A stretch of DNA of 64,000 nt, from positions 62,001 to 126,000 of the forward strand of contig WRLP01000003.1 in NCBI GenBank assembly GCA_009777535.1, read 5' to 3'. Position numbers and translations under genes: made by a program. The stretch comes from Treponema sp. (GTDB lineage: Bacteria > Spirochaetota > Spirochaetia > Treponematales > Breznakiellaceae). Positions 55,530 to 64,000 of this stretch are shown piece by piece. Positions within the stretch are counted from its first letter, which is position 1; every line of letters begins with the position of its first letter. The notes beneath the pieces are model-generated. The model saw only the letters and a list, made by a program, of their open reading frames with translations. It was not told where the DNA came from and did no database searches.

Positions 55530-55657
55530 TGCGAGGCAAAGGCGGTGCTTTCGAGCCGCGCTCTTACTCTCTTAACTTTTCCTTAGTCTCAGCCGCTCCT
55601 GCCGGTGCTTCTTAAAGGGACGAGGTATATTGTTCAAAAAGTGCCGATATTATAGTG

Positions 55658-56875
55658 ATGAATAAACGGACAATCTATCAATTAACACTCATTCTTTTAC
55701 TTTTGGCGATAACGAGCAGGCAGGCGTACTGCGAGGTTTTTGAATATAAACACAGGGCCGGCGACCGTTACCGGATTCTTTCCATGGTTAAAGAAGATGT
55801 GTATATAAATCGCCGTCTTAATCATTCCGCTGAAATCCTCAATCGCATCGCGGTGGAAATTACAGGCGAAAACGACGGCGTTGGACTGCACCGCGCTGTT
55901 TTTCAGACTTCGGAGCGTTCAACCGGAACCAGGTTTGGCGGCGTCAGTTTTCAGTGGGCAAGGGAATACGATTCCGTTTTCCAGCGGGATAAACTCGGCA
56001 ATATGACAATAGGCCGGGAATACTACATGCCTGTAGTACGGAATGTTCCGGTGTTTCCCGGCAGAACCCTGAATCCCGGGGACAGATGGAGCGCCGACGG
56101 CCATGAGATGCACGATTTTCGTGACAGCTTCGGCATCGAGCAGCCTTACCGCATTCCCTTTATCGCTAATTATACCTTTCTTGGCAGCCGCCAGTGGAAG
56201 GGTACGGAATACCCGGCTTTTTCGGTCAGTTACCGCATTCTTACCGATCCGTCGCCTGTTGCGGGCAGGGTTTGGCCGCGCCGTATTACAGGAGCGTCGG
56301 ATCATATTGTTTATTGGGATGTTGATATGGGGCAAGCCGTTGCCTACGAAGAACAATTCCGCATGGTTTTTGAACTTTCCGATGGAAGGACTATTGAGTA
56401 CCGGGGCAGCGCACAGGCAGAAATTCTTGAATCGCCGGAAATGGACAAGGACAGAATCGCTTCGGATATCAGGGAAGATATCGACAGGCTGAATATTCCA
56501 AATGTTGAAGTAAAAGTCGTAGACGAGGGCATTTCCATCAACCTTGAAGATATAAGGTTCCAGGCGGATACCGCAATTATGCTTCCCGGCGAGCGCGAAA
56601 AACTTGATCAAATCGCAGAAATTCTTTTGCGTTATCCGGAAAGAGACATAATGGTAGCAGGCCACACTGCCCTGGCCGGAACCGCCGAGGGAAGAATGAA
56701 TCTTTCCAGGGAGCGGGCCGCAGCGGTTGCCGACTATCTTATCTCGAAAAATGTTCGCACTGTCGACAGGGTTACGGTCCGGGGCTACGGCGCCGAAAGG
56801 CCTGTTGCAGATAACCGCAGCGAAGAAGGAATGCGCAGAAACAGAAGGGTAGAGATTACCATTTTGGAAAACTGA
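55658..56875 (+). CDS. Exported OmpA-family protein
   Basis: 405 aa from ATG 55658, the second codon of a GTG-ATG pair. Signal peptide LTLILLLLAITSRQAYCE; the mature N-terminal ~270 residues are beta-rich and unassigned. C-terminal OmpA domain (~300-405): MVAGHTALAGTAEGRMNLSRERAAAVADYL and RRVEITIL. The usual GHTD aspartate is replaced (GHTA), so peptidoglycan binding may be altered. A TATTAT box lies 4 nt before the ATG. Confidence 0.82.
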   Translation: MNKRTIYQLTLILLLLAITSRQAYCEVFEYKHRAGDRYRILSMVKEDVYINRRLNHSAEILNRIAVEITGENDGVGLHRAVFQTSERSTGTRFGGVSFQWAREYDSVFQRDKLGNMTIGREYYMPVVRNVPVFPGRTLNPGDRWSADGHEMHDFRDSFGIEQPYRIPFIANYTFLGSRQWKGTEYPAFSVSYRILTDPSPVAGRVWPRRITGASDHIVYWDVDMGQAVAYEEQFRMVFELSDGRTIEYRGSAQAEILESPEMDKDRIASDIREDIDRLNIPNVEVKVVDEGISINLEDIRFQADTAIMLPGEREKLDQIAEILLRYPERDIMVAGHTALAGTAEGRMNLSRERAAAVADYLISKNVRTVDRVTVRGYGAERPVADNRSEEGMRRNRRVEITILEN

Positions 56876-56889
56876 TAATTGCCGGCGTT

Positions 56890-57873
56890 TTATGTACGGG
56901 GAATATTTCTCAGGATAAAAATTTCAGGACGGTATTCAAAATGCATGGTGTCGTAGTTTCCCCACTTACCGCCCCAAATAAAACCAAAGGATTCAAAAGT
57001 GCGAATAACTTCGTCCGGCGGATGATAACGTCCGGAGTAGGGGATGTTCCACCATTGAGGATTATCGCGGGCTGTCCACAGCCAATAGGTTGCCAATCCG
57101 CCCAGGTTTTTTGGCAGCAAATCTATCGCTATGCCATAGGAATGCATGCTCCGGTTTCCCGAACTTGCTACGCTGCGCCAGTTCCAGCCCGCGACAGTTC
57201 CAAGGTTATCAATCCATTGGCGTACAGCGGGACTGGTTTTGGATTCATTTGTAATTATTTCATCAATCAGGATCATCGTCTGTGAAATGCCGGAATGAAT
57301 CGACAGTGAATGTCCCAAAAAATCAATCTGCGACTGCTGTTCCCATGCCTGATCGCGGCTGCTGATATTCCACAGGGCTTCGAAAAAAAACAGGGGCCGT
57401 CTTGCGGCCGGCCTGGCAGGCTGAGTTTGAGTTTGCCTGATGCGGCGGCCTTCTTCGGCGCTGAGTGTCCGCGCTGCCCTTTGCTCAGCGGTACTTTCCC
57501 ATGCCGGCAATTCCTGCGGATAATTGAAGTTGAAACCCATGGCGCGGTAATCTTCCGCCGCATCTTTTAGTTCCTCGGGAAGAAACCGTCCATCGGCATA
57601 ATAAAACCACTTTTCTCCGATTGTAAAGGCCCAGTCATCATTCCTGAATTCCACCGGCCCAATGCGATCGGGATACGCGGCAGAAAGAACCTTCATGATC
57701 GTTTCCGGCCAGTCCATCTCGGAAATGATTACACCCGATTCTTCCGGCATATCCTGCGCATATACGATTGTCAGTATTTTTTGGACTACGAGCCAGGTAA
57801 AAATTGCCAGGGCGGGAACAAGAAAAAATAGTCTCCGTTTTCTGTCCGTAAATATCTTGTATATTCGCATCAT
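56890..57873 (-). CDS. M15-type D,D-carboxypeptidase (VanY-like)
   Basis: 327 aa. N-terminal signal anchor (RRLFFLVPALAIFTWLVVQKI). Zinc peptidase motifs SMHSYGIAIDL and YDTMHFEYRPE match the M15 D-alanyl-D-alanine carboxypeptidase fold, acting on peptidoglycan stem peptides in the periplasm. Two adjacent ATGs at 57873 and 57870; the -10 box TATAAT (57882-57877) is 6 nt before the second. Confidence 0.85.
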   Translation of the reverse strand: MMRIYKIFTDRKRRLFFLVPALAIFTWLVVQKILTIVYAQDMPEESGVIISEMDWPETIMKVLSAAYPDRIGPVEFRNDDWAFTIGEKWFYYADGRFLPEELKDAAEDYRAMGFNFNYPQELPAWESTAEQRAARTLSAEEGRRIRQTQTQPARPAARRPLFFFEALWNISSRDQAWEQQSQIDFLGHSLSIHSGISQTMILIDEIITNESKTSPAVRQWIDNLGTVAGWNWRSVASSGNRSMHSYGIAIDLLPKNLGGLATYWLWTARDNPQWWNIPYSGRYHPPDEVIRTFESFGFIWGGKWGNYDTMHFEYRPEIFILRNIPRT

Positions 57874-57876
57874 TTA

Positions 57877-57882
57877 ATTATA
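57877..57882 (-). promoter_or_regulatory. -10 box of the M15 peptidase gene
   Basis: TATAAT 3 nt before ATG 57873 and 6 nt before ATG 57870; no clear -35. Another leaderless-type arrangement. Confidence 0.35.
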
Positions 57883-57924
57883 AGACATTTTAACTGATAA
57901 TTGCCTGAATAAAACAGTATTGCT

Positions 57925-60153
57925 CTATGCAAGGTTAATATCAGCGCACAGCATTGCCTGTGCATACTGCCTCTTTAATGCCTGCGGCGGAAGATACGGA
58001 TCGAATTTCCCAACGCGGGGAATGCGCGCCGGATCAATCAATGGATAAAGTGATTCGAGGCTTTTATATTTTTTCAGAATGTCTGCCAGTTCGCTGCGGA
58101 AACGGGGGATGGGAAGAACAGAAGTTATGTTGATAGAAAAGTCGTTTTCCGTAGAAAGGGACTTGATGCCAAGGGTTTTACCATGTTCCCTGTTTTGCAT
58201 AACAAGGAGCAGGGTTCTGATGCTGCGGCTGCCGAGCCAGGGCAGCAGAACAAAAAGGCGCGGCTCCCGCGCGGCAGCGCCATGTTTCATCACGCCGGCG
58301 CGCGGTTCGGCGGGAATAAATACCTCTTCGCCTACATGCCATTGCCTGGCCAGTTTCCTGGCGGCAGTCAGGCGTGTGCGCGCGCGCTGTGAAAGGTAAG
58401 GGTAATCGGTAGTTTCGGCCAGTATTTTTCGCATATAGGCGGCTGTTTTCCTGTGAAGAACCATGGCGCTGCCGCGCCAGAGCAGGCGGCTGCCGGCATC
58501 GGCGGGGCTTACGGCGATTTCTCTTTCCCTCTGGGCGACATTTTCAACACGCCAGTGCCGGCCGCCCAGAACGATGCTGCTGCCAACCGGAGGCATAAAA
58601 TTGACATAACCGATTTCCCTGCCGGCAGCCGTTACACGGAATTCCGCCGTATCAGCAAAGACCGAATAAAATGAATAATGTGATGCAAGGTGTCCGGTTT
58701 CCAGGCCTGCGATAATTTCGCCGTCATCTGTTTTTTCAACCAGGTCGAGTGTTATAAGATGATCCAGCAGCTCGTTAAAATCGTTTTCGCTGAAGCGGGA
58801 AAAGGCGGGCAGGCAAAGAATCCGGCGCTCCAGGGATTTTCGGCTGTGGGCGCCCATTGAACAGAGAATGCTCAGGCACTGGTGAACCAAAAGGCTGTAG
58901 GGCAGGGGATTCTCATCGCCGCCTTCTAACCATTTTTCTTTTAAGTAAAGTTCGATAACTGCGATGGTTTTTACAAGATCAAAGGGAAGTGAGTTTACAG
59001 GATGTACCGGAGTTGAATCCCTGCCGGGCTTTGTTTCACAGGAAGTAAAATATATTTCCGGCTTTTGCTTCAGCCGGCCTGAACGCCCCAGCCGCTGTAC
59101 AAAGGCAGATACGCTCAGAGGCGGCCCGATCTGTATTACCCTGTCCAGCTTCCCGATGTCTATGCCCATTTCCAGGGTTGCGGTGGCCGCCGCCGTTACC
59201 GGCTCGCTGCTGTCTCTAAGTTCCTGCTCTGTCTCCGAGCGCAGGCCGGCTGAAACAGAGCCGTGATGCATATAAAAGCGATCCGTATCCCTGAACTTTG
59301 CCGATAGCTTCCTTAAACGGGCGATTGTATCCTCGGCTTCGATTCTGCTGTTGGTAAAAATAATGCTTTTTTTGCCGCGCACCTGCATGTAAAGCGATTC
59401 GTAGTACAGTTGTTCTTCGGCCTTTTCCCCCGCGAAATGATCGACGGCAATGCGTATGCGCCGCCGGCCTTTTCTGCCGCGAATGACCGCCGTGCCGGGG
59501 GCTTCGCCGCCATTGCAGATAACGCGGCTGCTTCCCAGAGCCAGCCAGCCGGCGGCCTGGCGGTAATCCCCAAGTGTTGCCGAAAGCCCTATGCGCCGCG
59601 GCCGGCACAGGGCGGCTTCTTCGATCCTTGCAAGCTGGCACAGTATCTGGCTTCCGCGCTCGCTGCCCATAAAGGCATGTACTTCGTCGATTATTACAAA
59701 AGAAAGCCTGCTGAACATGGCGCGTACCAGGACATGCGAACGCATGAGCAGGGCTTCAAGTGATTCCGGCGTTATCTGCAATATGCCGGACGGATTTTCC
59801 AGCAGGCTTTTTTTGTGCCGGGCGGAAACATCTCCGTGCCAGCGCCAGAGCGGAAGCCCTGCCATCTCGGCAAGCGGCAGGAGCCGCTGCGCCTGATCGT
59901 TTATCAGTGCTTTCAGCGGACTGATGTAAAGCGCCCCTACGGACGGAGGCCGCTCTTCGTAAAGAAGGGATACAACCGGAAAAAAGCAGGCTTCGGTCTT
60001 GCCGGTCGCGGCGGGCGAAGCGATCAATATGTGGCTGTCGCCGTCATAAATTTCTTTTATCGCCGCTTCCTGAATATCACGCAGAGAGTGCCACTTTTTT
60101 TCATAAATATATTCTCTTATAAAAGGCGCCAGTCTGGAAAATTGGGAGGCCAT
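57925..60153 (-). CDS. Lhr/BrxHI-like DEVH-box helicase
   Basis: 742 aa superfamily 2 helicase. Motif I PAATGKTE (47-54), Ia YISPLKALINDQ, motif II IIDEVHAF (D156-H159), motif III SATLGD, IV IFTNSRIEAED, and VI FVQRLGRSGR, followed by the long Lhr-like C-terminal region. Closest in layout to the helicase BrxHI of type 2 BREX, which follows BrxD; here it follows a BrxD-like ATPase directly (adjacent codons). Start ATG overlaps nothing. Predicted to unwind or translocate on DNA as part of the three-gene unit. Confidence 0.85.
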   Translation of the reverse strand: MASQFSRLAPFIREYIYEKKWHSLRDIQEAAIKEIYDGDSHILIASPAATGKTEACFFPVVSLLYEERPPSVGALYISPLKALINDQAQRLLPLAEMAGLPLWRWHGDVSARHKKSLLENPSGILQITPESLEALLMRSHVLVRAMFSRLSFVIIDEVHAFMGSERGSQILCQLARIEEAALCRPRRIGLSATLGDYRQAAGWLALGSSRVICNGGEAPGTAVIRGRKGRRRIRIAVDHFAGEKAEEQLYYESLYMQVRGKKSIIFTNSRIEAEDTIARLRKLSAKFRDTDRFYMHHGSVSAGLRSETEQELRDSSEPVTAAATATLEMGIDIGKLDRVIQIGPPLSVSAFVQRLGRSGRLKQKPEIYFTSCETKPGRDSTPVHPVNSLPFDLVKTIAVIELYLKEKWLEGGDENPLPYSLLVHQCLSILCSMGAHSRKSLERRILCLPAFSRFSENDFNELLDHLITLDLVEKTDDGEIIAGLETGHLASHYSFYSVFADTAEFRVTAAGREIGYVNFMPPVGSSIVLGGRHWRVENVAQREREIAVSPADAGSRLLWRGSAMVLHRKTAAYMRKILAETTDYPYLSQRARTRLTAARKLARQWHVGEEVFIPAEPRAGVMKHGAAAREPRLFVLLPWLGSRSIRTLLLVMQNREHGKTLGIKSLSTENDFSINITSVLPIPRFRSELADILKKYKSLESLYPLIDPARIPRVGKFDPYLPPQALKRQYAQAMLCADINLA

Positions 60154-61446
60154 TTATACATCAAACTCGGCATACTGCGCGGCGGAAAAACCCTTTACGG
60201 TAAACCCGTCTCTGCCGACCAGCTTGTCAAAGTCCGTGTCCTTGTCTTCATGCAGAATATTAAGAAGGCTGATAAAATCGCGGCTTATTTCCCGCGGAGT
60301 TATAAATTCATGTGCGCCGGGAACAGAGAATGCAAGTTTCATGAATGCGGAAAGTTCCCTGTTTTCCAGATACGGTTCATAGTTGTAGTGGCCGGCGTGT
60401 ATGTCCCTGAGCCGCTCCAATAGCAGATAAATCTCCTCGTGGCTGAGCTGGGCGAGGCGCAAGACGGGGCTGGAAAAATCAGTGTAGCCTTCGCGTACAA
60501 AGCGGCTGTCGGCAAGGCGGCTGCGAAGGGCAGGATAGCTGAAAAGCCCCCTGCGTTCATCTTCTATAAACTGGGGAGTTCCCGCCATGTAAACCGCCAT
60601 GCCCGATGTTTTCCCCTGGGTAATATCATTAAACATTGAAAGGAGTTTTTGATAGTTGTTTTCCCTGGACTGCCGGTTTACGATCTTGAATAAATTTGAA
60701 CATTCATCGAAAAAAAGCAGGAAGCCCCTGTAGCCAATTTTTGCTCCAAAGGCGGAAAAAACTTTAAGGTACTCGTACCAGTTTTCATCGGTGATAATTT
60801 CACCTACCGGAAGCATTGTCTTTGCTTCGGTTTTGGTGGCGAACTCGCCGCGCAGCCATTTTAGGGCGGCGTGCTGTTTTTCGTCGTTGCCGTTTGTCCA
60901 GGCGCGGTAGTAACTTATGATAACCGCGGCAAAATCATAGCCGTGTGCATAGTCTTCCATCTGGGCAATTGTTTCAAAGATGCGCCTGTCCAGCATAGAC
61001 GCCTTGTCGTCGTCCTGGAAACCTCCGCCGGTGGCAAGCTCCATCTTGATCGAGTTGATCCACTGCTGCAGGATCGATTCCAGGGCGCCGCCTTCAGGGC
61101 GCAGTTTTGTTGCAAGCCGTGATACAAGCTCGCGGTAGGTTTCCAGCCCTGCGTGTCTGGAGCCGGTAAGGCGTTTTTCCGGCGAAAGGTCTGCGTCTGC
61201 GACAAGGAAGTCGTTCTCCAGGGCATAGTTGCGGATGGCTTGAAGAAAAAAGGTTTTGCCGCTGCCGTATTTGCCGCAGACAAAGCGGAAACTGGCCGCC
61301 CCTCTGCCCAGGTTTTCCAGGTCGCGCAGGACCGTTTCGATTTCGCGGCGGCGCCCGACGGCGATGTATTCAAGGCCGACACGGGGCACCACGCCCGCAG
61401 ACAGGGAATTGAGAATAGCCGCGCTTAAACGTTTAGGTACACTCAT
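60154..61446 (-). CDS. BrxD-like ATPase (DUF2791/BREX ATP-binding family)
   Basis: 430 aa. Starts with the family's ILNSLSAGVVPRVGLEYIAVGRRREI; Walker A GKYGSGKT (58-65), Walker B LLFFDECS (D247, E248), then YMAGTPQFIEDERRGLFSYPALRSRL and a C-terminal LTPREISRDF-like segment (FITPREISRDF). This is the DUF2791 ATPase found as BrxD in type 2 BREX and in TerB-linked clusters. No PglX, PglZ or other BREX gene is present beside it. Gap to the TerB gene 4 bp; the helicase start follows immediately. Confidence 0.85.
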   Translation of the reverse strand: MSVPKRLSAAILNSLSAGVVPRVGLEYIAVGRRREIETVLRDLENLGRGAASFRFVCGKYGSGKTFFLQAIRNYALENDFLVADADLSPEKRLTGSRHAGLETYRELVSRLATKLRPEGGALESILQQWINSIKMELATGGGFQDDDKASMLDRRIFETIAQMEDYAHGYDFAAVIISYYRAWTNGNDEKQHAALKWLRGEFATKTEAKTMLPVGEIITDENWYEYLKVFSAFGAKIGYRGFLLFFDECSNLFKIVNRQSRENNYQKLLSMFNDITQGKTSGMAVYMAGTPQFIEDERRGLFSYPALRSRLADSRFVREGYTDFSSPVLRLAQLSHEEIYLLLERLRDIHAGHYNYEPYLENRELSAFMKLAFSVPGAHEFITPREISRDFISLLNILHEDKDTDFDKLVGRDGFTVKGFSAAQYAEFDV

Positions 61447-61450
61447 TTCA

Positions 61451-62884
61451 TTACAACAGCTTAAAAAGTTCTTCCCTATATTCTGACTGAATAACGGCCT
61501 GCGCGTCCACCGTGTTTATCAGCAGATCGCCCCATGCCTCCATAAAGGCGGCATTGATTTTATCGATGAGCATATCCGGCATTGTATTGTTTTCTCTTGC
61601 CAGAGATGCCAGCATTGCAGCTTTGTTTTCATCTTCGCCGGCAATTATCCGCAGGGCCTGTATTTCGTTCTTGTCCAGTTTTTTTATGAATGTTTTAAAT
61701 GATATTTTAACAGGTTTTGTTTTTGCGGCTTTTATTATTCGCGGAGGGGTATCGGGAACTTCCGTTTCTTTTTCTTCGACGGTGAGCATGTCGCGGACAA
61801 TATCAGAATCGCTGCGCAGCCGGATGAGTCCGTCATTGTTTATGTTTATCTGCGTCAGTGCGTGATCCGCCATGCGCTTCCAGCGGTCGGCGAGATGAGG
61901 AGGCCTGTCTGCGGTCTTATAGTCATTTTTAATTCTGAAACAGTGTTCAACATAATCGAATAAATTTTCAAGAAAACTGATAAGACTAATGTTTTTCGAA
62001 AAGCGCCGCCCTGTAACTGTGTACGAAGAATGACCGGCGCGTTCCATGCCGGCAAAGGCTTTTCGGTTTTCGGTATTGATCGAGCGGGGACAAAAATATT
62101 CAAACAGCCCAAGCCGGTCATTTTCCCGCAGATTGCGATCGATGGCGTTAATTACGGTCTCGAAATCACCGGCAAACTCCCCGCTGCGGGATGAGTACCG
62201 GTCGAAGAAAATGCTCTTTTCCAGCGGCCGGCGAAGCAGAAGTTTAATATCATTAAAGGCGATTGTGTTATTTTCTTCGATAAAGCTTTTGTAAATTAAA
62301 ATATCAACAAGCAGCAGATCGCTGCATCCGCGTACATGCGGTAACAATCCGGTTATAAAGGTATTTGGCATTTCATATAACACGATAAAATCCAGCAGCC
62401 ACCCGGGAAGAAAGCCGCCGATATCATCAAAAACATCGCCGTAATATTTCCAGAGTTCTTCAAGCTGGCGGAAATTTTCTGCAAACTCTTTTTCCCCTCC
62501 GGAAAAAAGGCATAGCTCTCGCGCGTAAATGCGGATATATTTTTCATCGGTTTTAAGGATATTTCTGCGGCGGAATTCAGCGCGCCAGTAAATATAAAAC
62601 GCCCTTTCGCTCTCGTCCATTCGTTCAATGTCAAGGGAGCCCTTCAAAAGCCTGAGCGGAGTGTACGGCGCCGGCGGCCCCTCAGCCCTGAACAGACTCA
62701 GCTCTGTATACAGTGACTGCCCGTCAATGGCGGCAAATTTTTCTTTTACCGCAAAACTGAAGGGGAAAGAGGTGTTTTTGGGGAAATTTGACGAAGGATG
62801 GTTTTTGTCCTTTTCCACAAACTGTTTTACCACAGTAACGCATAAATTACCAGATACCTTCCTGGGAGTTTTACCCAAAGGCAA
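61451..62884 (-). CDS. TerB-N/TerB-C domain protein
   Basis: 477 aa from TTG 62884; the true start may lie a little inside, since no good ribosome site is seen. The segment YIYWRAEFRRRNILKTDEKYIRIYARELCLF matches the TerB-N domain; the C-terminal region (KISFKTFIKKLDKNEIQALRIIAGEDENK ... INAAFMEAWGDLLINT) fits TerB-C, both known from tellurium-resistance-linked DNA-processing operons. Function unproven. Forms an operon with a BrxD-like ATPase and an Lhr-like helicase. Family assignment from reading only. Confidence 0.7.
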   Translation of the reverse strand: MPLGKTPRKVSGNLCVTVVKQFVEKDKNHPSSNFPKNTSFPFSFAVKEKFAAIDGQSLYTELSLFRAEGPPAPYTPLRLLKGSLDIERMDESERAFYIYWRAEFRRRNILKTDEKYIRIYARELCLFSGGEKEFAENFRQLEELWKYYGDVFDDIGGFLPGWLLDFIVLYEMPNTFITGLLPHVRGCSDLLLVDILIYKSFIEENNTIAFNDIKLLLRRPLEKSIFFDRYSSRSGEFAGDFETVINAIDRNLRENDRLGLFEYFCPRSINTENRKAFAGMERAGHSSYTVTGRRFSKNISLISFLENLFDYVEHCFRIKNDYKTADRPPHLADRWKRMADHALTQININNDGLIRLRSDSDIVRDMLTVEEKETEVPDTPPRIIKAAKTKPVKISFKTFIKKLDKNEIQALRIIAGEDENKAAMLASLARENNTMPDMLIDKINAAFMEAWGDLLINTVDAQAVIQSEYREELFKLL

Positions 62885-62918
62885 GAAATATTAATGCTGC
62901 AGAACTCATAAACGTGCA

Positions 62919-62947
62919 TTGCCATTTTGATATAGCCAAGTTATAAT
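62919..62947 (+). promoter_or_regulatory. Leaderless-type promoter of MNT gene
   Basis: TTGCCA (62919), 17 bp, TATAAT (62942-62947), 6 nt to ATG 62954. Confidence 0.6.
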
Positions 62948-62953
62948 ATTGAT

Positions 62954-63277
62954 ATGGATTCAGCAATTCAGGCGGAATTGAACAAACTTACAGAACTCAT
63001 TCTCAACGCAATGCCTGTTGAACAAATTTACCTTTTTGGTTCTTATGCCTATGGAACGCCCCACAGGGATTCCGACCTGGATCTGTATGTGGTATTGAAA
63101 GATGACAATCCTATGCGGGATCTTGATGCCGGCCTGCAAATCCGCTTGGCTATTGCCCGTAAAAAGTCCATGCCTGTTGATATAATTGCAAAAAAGAAAA
63201 AAGATTTTATCAGCCGTCTGGATGGTATGACGCTGGAGCGTAAGGTAAACAGGGAGGGGATACGCATCTATGGCTAA
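62954..63277 (+). CDS. Minimal nucleotidyltransferase (MNT) of an MNT/HEPN pair
   Basis: 107 aa. Active-site GSYAYGTPHRDSDLDLYV fits the GSX10DXD pattern of MntA-type minimal nucleotidyltransferases. Its start overlaps nothing upstream; its end overlaps the HEPN gene by 8 bp. In known pairs such proteins modify or counteract the HEPN partner. Divergent from the TerB operon, across a 69-bp gap with the promoter at 62919. Confidence 0.85.
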   Translation: MDSAIQAELNKLTELILNAMPVEQIYLFGSYAYGTPHRDSDLDLYVVLKDDNPMRDLDAGLQIRLAIARKKSMPVDIIAKKKKDFISRLDGMTLERKVNREGIRIYG

Positions 63278-63674
63278 ACAAACAAACTCACCGGATGACT
63301 GGAGAGTCCTGGCAGAGCGTGATATGTCCGTCGCAGAGCATCTTGCCAGAACCATGGTTCCTGTTCCAGCGGAAATTATCGCTTTTCATTGCCAGCAAAC
63401 TGCAGAAAAGCTTCTAAAAGGCGCTCTGGAAAAGCTGGGAGAAGAACCGCCCTACACCCACGACCTGGACGAGCTTTGTGGAATTGCAGAAAAGCACCGT
63501 CCTTCATTTGCAAGCATATCTTCTCTTTGCTCGGTAATAACCCATTTTTCAATATTGCCCCGTTATGATCGGGGTTTGAGCTTGTCTCTAACAGATTTGA
63601 ATATTGTTATGCAGCACACAAAAACAATCAAGGAATTTCTACAAAAGGAAATTCCCGAAATGTTTACAGTCTGA
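63270..63674 (+). CDS. HEPN-domain protein
   Basis: 134 aa. AFHCQQTAEKLLKGALEKLG, YTHDLDEL and ILPRYDRG are the HEPN signature of the subfamily paired with MNT proteins. The RX4-6H RNase motif of HepT-type toxins is not present, so whether it is toxic is open. Overlaps the MNT gene by 8 bp, hence coupled. Confidence 0.82.
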   Translation: MAKQTNSPDDWRVLAERDMSVAEHLARTMVPVPAEIIAFHCQQTAEKLLKGALEKLGEEPPYTHDLDELCGIAEKHRPSFASISSLCSVITHFSILPRYDRGLSLSLTDLNIVMQHTKTIKEFLQKEIPEMFTV

Positions 63675-63684
63675 GCCGGCTTCT

Positions 63685-64000
63685 TTATCCACCGGTGAAG
63701 CGCCGCCTCGCCGCCCACAGACCCAGCGCCGGGTCTGAAACAAAAAAAATTCTTTCGCCGTCGTTCATTGTGTTCCAGCCGGGAGGCAGTTTGCCGGCGT
63801 TATAGCGGGCATTGGCTTCTTTCAAATCGCCCCACTGGTAACCCGCCGATTCTATTTCCTTGCGGGAAAGGCCGGCGCCGGGGCAGTAACGTACTGTAAA
63901 CCGCCCTTCGCCGCAGCCGTGGATCAGGTGGGCGGCGGTGCACAGGTTGCCGGCAAGGCAGGCATCCGTCTCTACCCTGGAAATAATTTCCCGCCCCGGC
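63685..64000 (-). CDS. Unrecognised gene, C-terminal part only
   Basis: Open at the right window edge; stop TAA at 63685-63687. The ~105 visible residues include CLAGNLCTAAHLIHGCGEG, YCPGAGLSRKEIESAGYQWGDL and KLPPGWNTMNDGERIFF. Several Cys and His suggest metal binding, but no family is recognised from this end. Convergent with the HEPN gene (10-bp gap). Confidence 0.5.
   Translation of the reverse strand, partial: PGREIISRVETDACLAGNLCTAAHLIHGCGEGRFTVRYCPGAGLSRKEIESAGYQWGDLKEANARYNAGKLPPGWNTMNDGERIFFVSDPALGLWAARRRFTGG

Follow-up and report, generated by a model that had tools for sequence, protein, structure and literature searches.

Shango is an anti-phage system encoded by three genes, sngA-sngB-sngC. 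The report of it from E. coli immune islands is said to be that of Millman et al. in 2022. Shango was published in 2022-2023 with phage restriction shown, the operon of PA14 having been tested in PAO1 (PMC10250203, Johnson et al. 2023); the earlier report from E. coli immune islands is taken here as PMC10250203 cites it. Outside Shango, SngB is most closely related to BrxD of type 2 bacteriophage exclusion (BREX), an ATPase assigned to the ORC/Cdc6 type that has been proposed as the loader of the helicase BrxHI (PMC12839542). One clade of defence helicases unites SngC with BrxHI, DruE and DpdJ (PMC12278908). Here we analyse a three-gene locus at positions 57925-62884 (minus strand) of a 64,000-nucleotide stretch of a Treponema sp. 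genome (contig WRLP01000003.1, hereafter the window). With a probability of roughly 0.93, judged from sequence matches, the locus represents a complete Shango system.

Match of the locus to Shango

The PADLOC models of Shango match in gene order, SngA at 7e-38 (residues 87-475), SngB at 9e-166 and SngC at 4e-205, and they outscore the BrxD and BrxHI models by hundreds of bits. Since all three match in order, the triad is a named and already described system. A preliminary description had presented it as a candidate defence system; the phage-defence part of that proposal stands, whilst the novelty is lost to the published Shango. The locus holds a TerB-type SngA together with SngB and SngC, both with intact motifs, in A-B-C adjacency. 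The genes are separated by 4 bp (sngA/sngB) and 0 bp (sngB/sngC), as the same description had it. Its domain calls (TerB_N/TerB_C, a BrxC/BrxD-family ATPase and a DEVH helicase of BrxHI/Lhr-like type) are confirmed by Pfam, TerB_N only below the cut-off, and its intact ATPase Walker motifs by alignment with relatives.

The sngA gene (61451-62884, minus strand, as are all features of the operon) encodes 477 aa from a TTG codon. The TerB_C domain (61466-61858) is above the Pfam cut-off at 2e-17 and the TerB_N match (62357-62623) below it at 2e-4 (21.3 against 25 bits). The last ~80 residues (395-477; 61454-61702) probably form a winged helix, as suggested by the structural model and by low-scoring structural matches (Z 5-6). 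The sngB gene (60154-61446) encodes a 430-aa ATPase that matches BrxC_BrxD (PF10923) at 2e-151, with Walker A, GKYGSGKT, at 61252-61275 and Walker B, LLFFDE, at 60703-60720. The sngC gene (57925-60153) encodes a 742-aa superfamily 2 (SF2) DEVH helicase with DEAD (3e-26) and Helicase_C (2e-15) matches, motif I ending in GKT (59995-60018), DEVH (59677-59688) and motif VI, QRLGRSGR (59074-59097). In alignments with relatives, the motifs of SngB and SngC prove intact and are conserved. By sequence, the best PDB matches of SngC are helicases annotated as ATP-dependent DNA helicases (5v9x, 7lhl); SngB has only weak P-loop/DnaA matches among solved structures and SngA has none.

That the triad stands alone, outside BREX, had also been proposed and is upheld. 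PglZ (PF08665) has no match in the whole genome, although at 93% completeness its absence is not absolute, and none in 25 other genomes that carry the system (one of which, L077, lacks SngC in the examined stretch); the same search does detect PglZ elsewhere in the phylum (14 of 247 genomes). PF10923 matches SngB alone, so the genome shows no second BrxC/D-family ATPase. Neither PglX nor PglW was seen among the scanned genes adjoining the operon, no whole-genome search having been made for them. The A-B-C order is found again in several phyla. The finding is thus settled as a known system, and Shango is placed in spirochaetes without BREX.

SngA, the variable component

SngA has the lowest identity of the three proteins both between the window and G311 (28%, against 68% for SngB and 50% for SngC) and between G288 and G173 (47%, against 86% and 84%). 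These sequence comparisons suggest that SngA evolves much faster than its partners, apparently a new detail. In the nearest relatives (L058, L059, L061, L063, L070 and G311) SngA is 825-1321 aa long and carries an extra N-terminal region, found also in some Bacillota. The window SngA is without it; homology to long SngA begins at residue 44, and the extension was not found elsewhere in the window genome. A Foldseek search with the window SngA model gave nothing significant.

In several relatives (L058:4227-5816, L061, L064, L070, L081, L084 and L024:5213-6943) the extension comprises ~520 aa ending in an SNF2-like lobe, and it carries a conserved H-x2-FLR-x-WG signature. The model of the L058 extension has a mean predicted local distance difference test score (pLDDT) of 79. 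Its residues ~320-494 match SNF2 remodelers with a Foldseek E of 4e-7 (probability 1.0) and a VIA Z of 14.9 (3.1 Å over 166 residues). As neither a Walker A nor a DEAH-type motif is seen in the lobe, it is read as a putative, catalytically dead SNF2 lobe. The literature searched makes no mention of an SNF2-like domain in SngA, though papers beyond that search may have one. BREX-related PglZ has been reported with an inactive Swi2/Snf2 domain at its N-terminus (PMC12839542). Homology between that protein and the SngA extension was considered and rejected, as five PglZ-type proteins, searched with a profile, yielded no match and hence no link by sequence.

Relatives around the window in the tree carry the extension, and its loss in the window lineage is the simplest reading. 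One possibility, which we hold tentatively, is that the window copy as a whole is derived or decaying: a deletion or rearrangement would have taken the 5' half of sngA, and possibly its promoter, leaving an MNT/HEPN gene pair beside it and sngB and sngC intact. Within the SngB clade of the window, every relative that can be read has the long SngA, and the point at which homology begins, with the extension nowhere else in the genome, fits such a loss. As read, sngA would begin at a weak TTG codon, ahead of which no ribosome-binding site can be recognised, and its 5' end is accordingly uncertain. Residues 1-38, unstructured in the model, are doubtful, and the true start may lie further inside. 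No promoter-like site was found on the sngA strand in the 70 bp upstream, but consensus promoter scans are weak evidence. Against decay, what remains of SngA has no stop and for the most part folds with good confidence in the model. Short SngA is also common elsewhere, and Paenibacillus has both forms, which indicates that the short one can be functional.

A proposed loader-helicase model

We propose that SngB, as an ORC/Cdc6-type AAA+ ATPase, would assemble on invading DNA and load or activate SngC on phage DNA, where the helicase would remodel or jam phage replication intermediates. The role of sensor or adaptor, choosing the target, would fall to SngA, a fast-evolving TerB protein with a probable winged helix. 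A Pfam scan recognised no nuclease domain in SngA, SngB or SngC, for which reason restriction would probably work by displacing or blocking phage replication rather than by cutting. The simplest model has SngA guiding SngB as it loads SngC. BrxD, the relative of SngB, has been proposed to load BrxHI, the relative of SngC, and the low conservation of SngA fits a recogniser. The scheme is inferential at every step, and we consider it less likely than not.

Several points weigh against this mechanism: (i) a 2026 review lists the mechanism of Shango as unknown (PMC12926258); (ii) fast evolution of SngA would equally suit a scaffold or an effector; (iii) the winged-helix matches are weak (Z <8); (iv) a short nuclease could have escaped detection; (v) anti-phage activity is known from other Shango copies, from which that of the window copy is presumed by analogy. 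The effector version of SngA can be stated more sharply, as a toxic protein released by SngB/SngC upon infection to bring about abortive infection. Fast evolution and domain turnover, both seen in SngA, are common in effectors, but SngA has no known toxin domain and protection of liquid cultures, published for many doses of phage, argues against cell suicide; we regard this version as improbable.

Returning to SngA as the recognition component, it is conceivable, with about the same reserve as for the loader-helicase scheme, that it is a modular recogniser, fused in one Shango branch (spirochaetes and some Bacillota) to a dead SNF2 lobe that the window lineage has dropped. If so, the lobe might hold on to DNA, or to a protein of phage replication, with no need of ATP, and in Shango a constant ATPase-helicase engine would be combined with sensors that can be exchanged. 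As the variable part, SngA offers a concrete place to look for phage recognition by Shango.

Distribution, genomic setting and comparison with known systems

Of 393 genomes sampled from the phylum, 13 carry SngB, a frequency unlike that of a housekeeping operon; the sample includes two other genomes of the genus, and both lack it. A wider scan gave 80 SngB loci, mainly in Bacillota but also in Spirochaetota, Actinomycetota, Bacteroidota and single members of other phyla. TerB_C is present in 70 of the 73 readable genes upstream of SngB, and SngC at 66 of the 80 loci, some of the remainder being cut by contig ends. A quick SngB tree places the window inside a supported spirochaete clade. Among plasmids, 686 records, mainly from Klebsiella and Salmonella, hold an SngB-like protein at E <1e-20, not necessarily all of them Shango. 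Peptide-pattern scans from single proteins returned no SngA relatives in genome contigs, no SngB relatives in viral contigs and only two SngC-like matches in a phage collection.

A Clostridia branch of SngB (L077, L093, L094, L109, L126, L130) has no SngC in the examined stretch, and most of its members have SngA upstream and unrelated genes after SngB; this is possibly a two-gene form, some stretches being cut short. At L020:8061-11200, sngA and sngB are present with no sngC match within the 17 kb examined. At L025:7759-9219 a gene with an FGE-sulfatase domain lies 20 bp upstream of sngB, in the place expected for sngA, and the contig ends just past it. Three Bacillota loci that group together (L072, L075, L076) carry a tandem pair of SngC-like helicase genes behind sngB.

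The operon lies in a stretch of ~17.7 kb that is absent from two sister genomes, running in the window from 56890 to 64000 and on to ~L016:10519. Its flanks, an OmpA-like gene (55655-56875) and a gene at L016:10615, are ~1 kb apart in the sister genomes. Besides Shango, this island carries an M15 peptidase, the MNT/HEPN pair, a Lar_N protein, GH26 and GDSL proteins and an AAA_14/DUF4143 ATPase. No integrase was found among the island genes scanned, and its ends show no tRNA gene and no common direct repeat of at least 12 bp in the compared stretches. Pfam confirms both domains of the MNT/HEPN pair (62954-63277 and 63270-63674), a divergent pair that lies 70 bp upstream of sngA, with a strong promoter-like site (11/12) at 62919-62947. 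The preliminary description had named this pair as the neighbour of the triad. A functional link is not supported, as no homologue of either protein occurs near ~90 other Shango loci; two more HEPN genes lie in other parts of the genome. As to an enrichment of defence genes next to Shango, the matches of 90 immediate neighbours spread over 45 models with at most two members each, a count made without a control set and hence telling neither way.

Of the known systems compared, MntA/HepT type VII toxin-antitoxin concerns only this neighbour, which has both domains but does not recur beside Shango and reaches 40 bits with the MntA model NF047752, under its cut-off of 60. Type 2 BREX shares with the triad a homologous ATPase and helicase encoded by adjacent genes. 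The window differs in having no PglZ genome-wide and no PglX or PglW among the scanned genes adjoining the operon, with a TerB protein instead, and in scores much weaker than those for Shango: SngB matches BrxD at 2e-52 (176 bits, under the cut-off of 350) and SngC matches BrxHI at 4e-122. A BREX fragment is rejected on account of the missing PglZ and of PF10923 matching SngB alone. Lhr-like and ligase-associated DEXH helicases have an SF2 layout related to that of SngC, but SngC falls far under the family cut-off (1e-62, 212 against 850 bits) and the partners differ. A type 2 BREX remnant, or a housekeeping DNA-repair operon around an Lhr or ligase-associated helicase, would account for these lesser matches, yet is extremely improbable given the lead of the Shango models, the PglZ results and the sparse occurrence in the phylum. 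With Shango the triad shares the three families, their order, the compact operon and the absence of BREX genes; it diverges in its SngA, which is short, has TerB_N below the cut-off and no PF05099 TerB match, and is without the N-terminal extension of its own clade.
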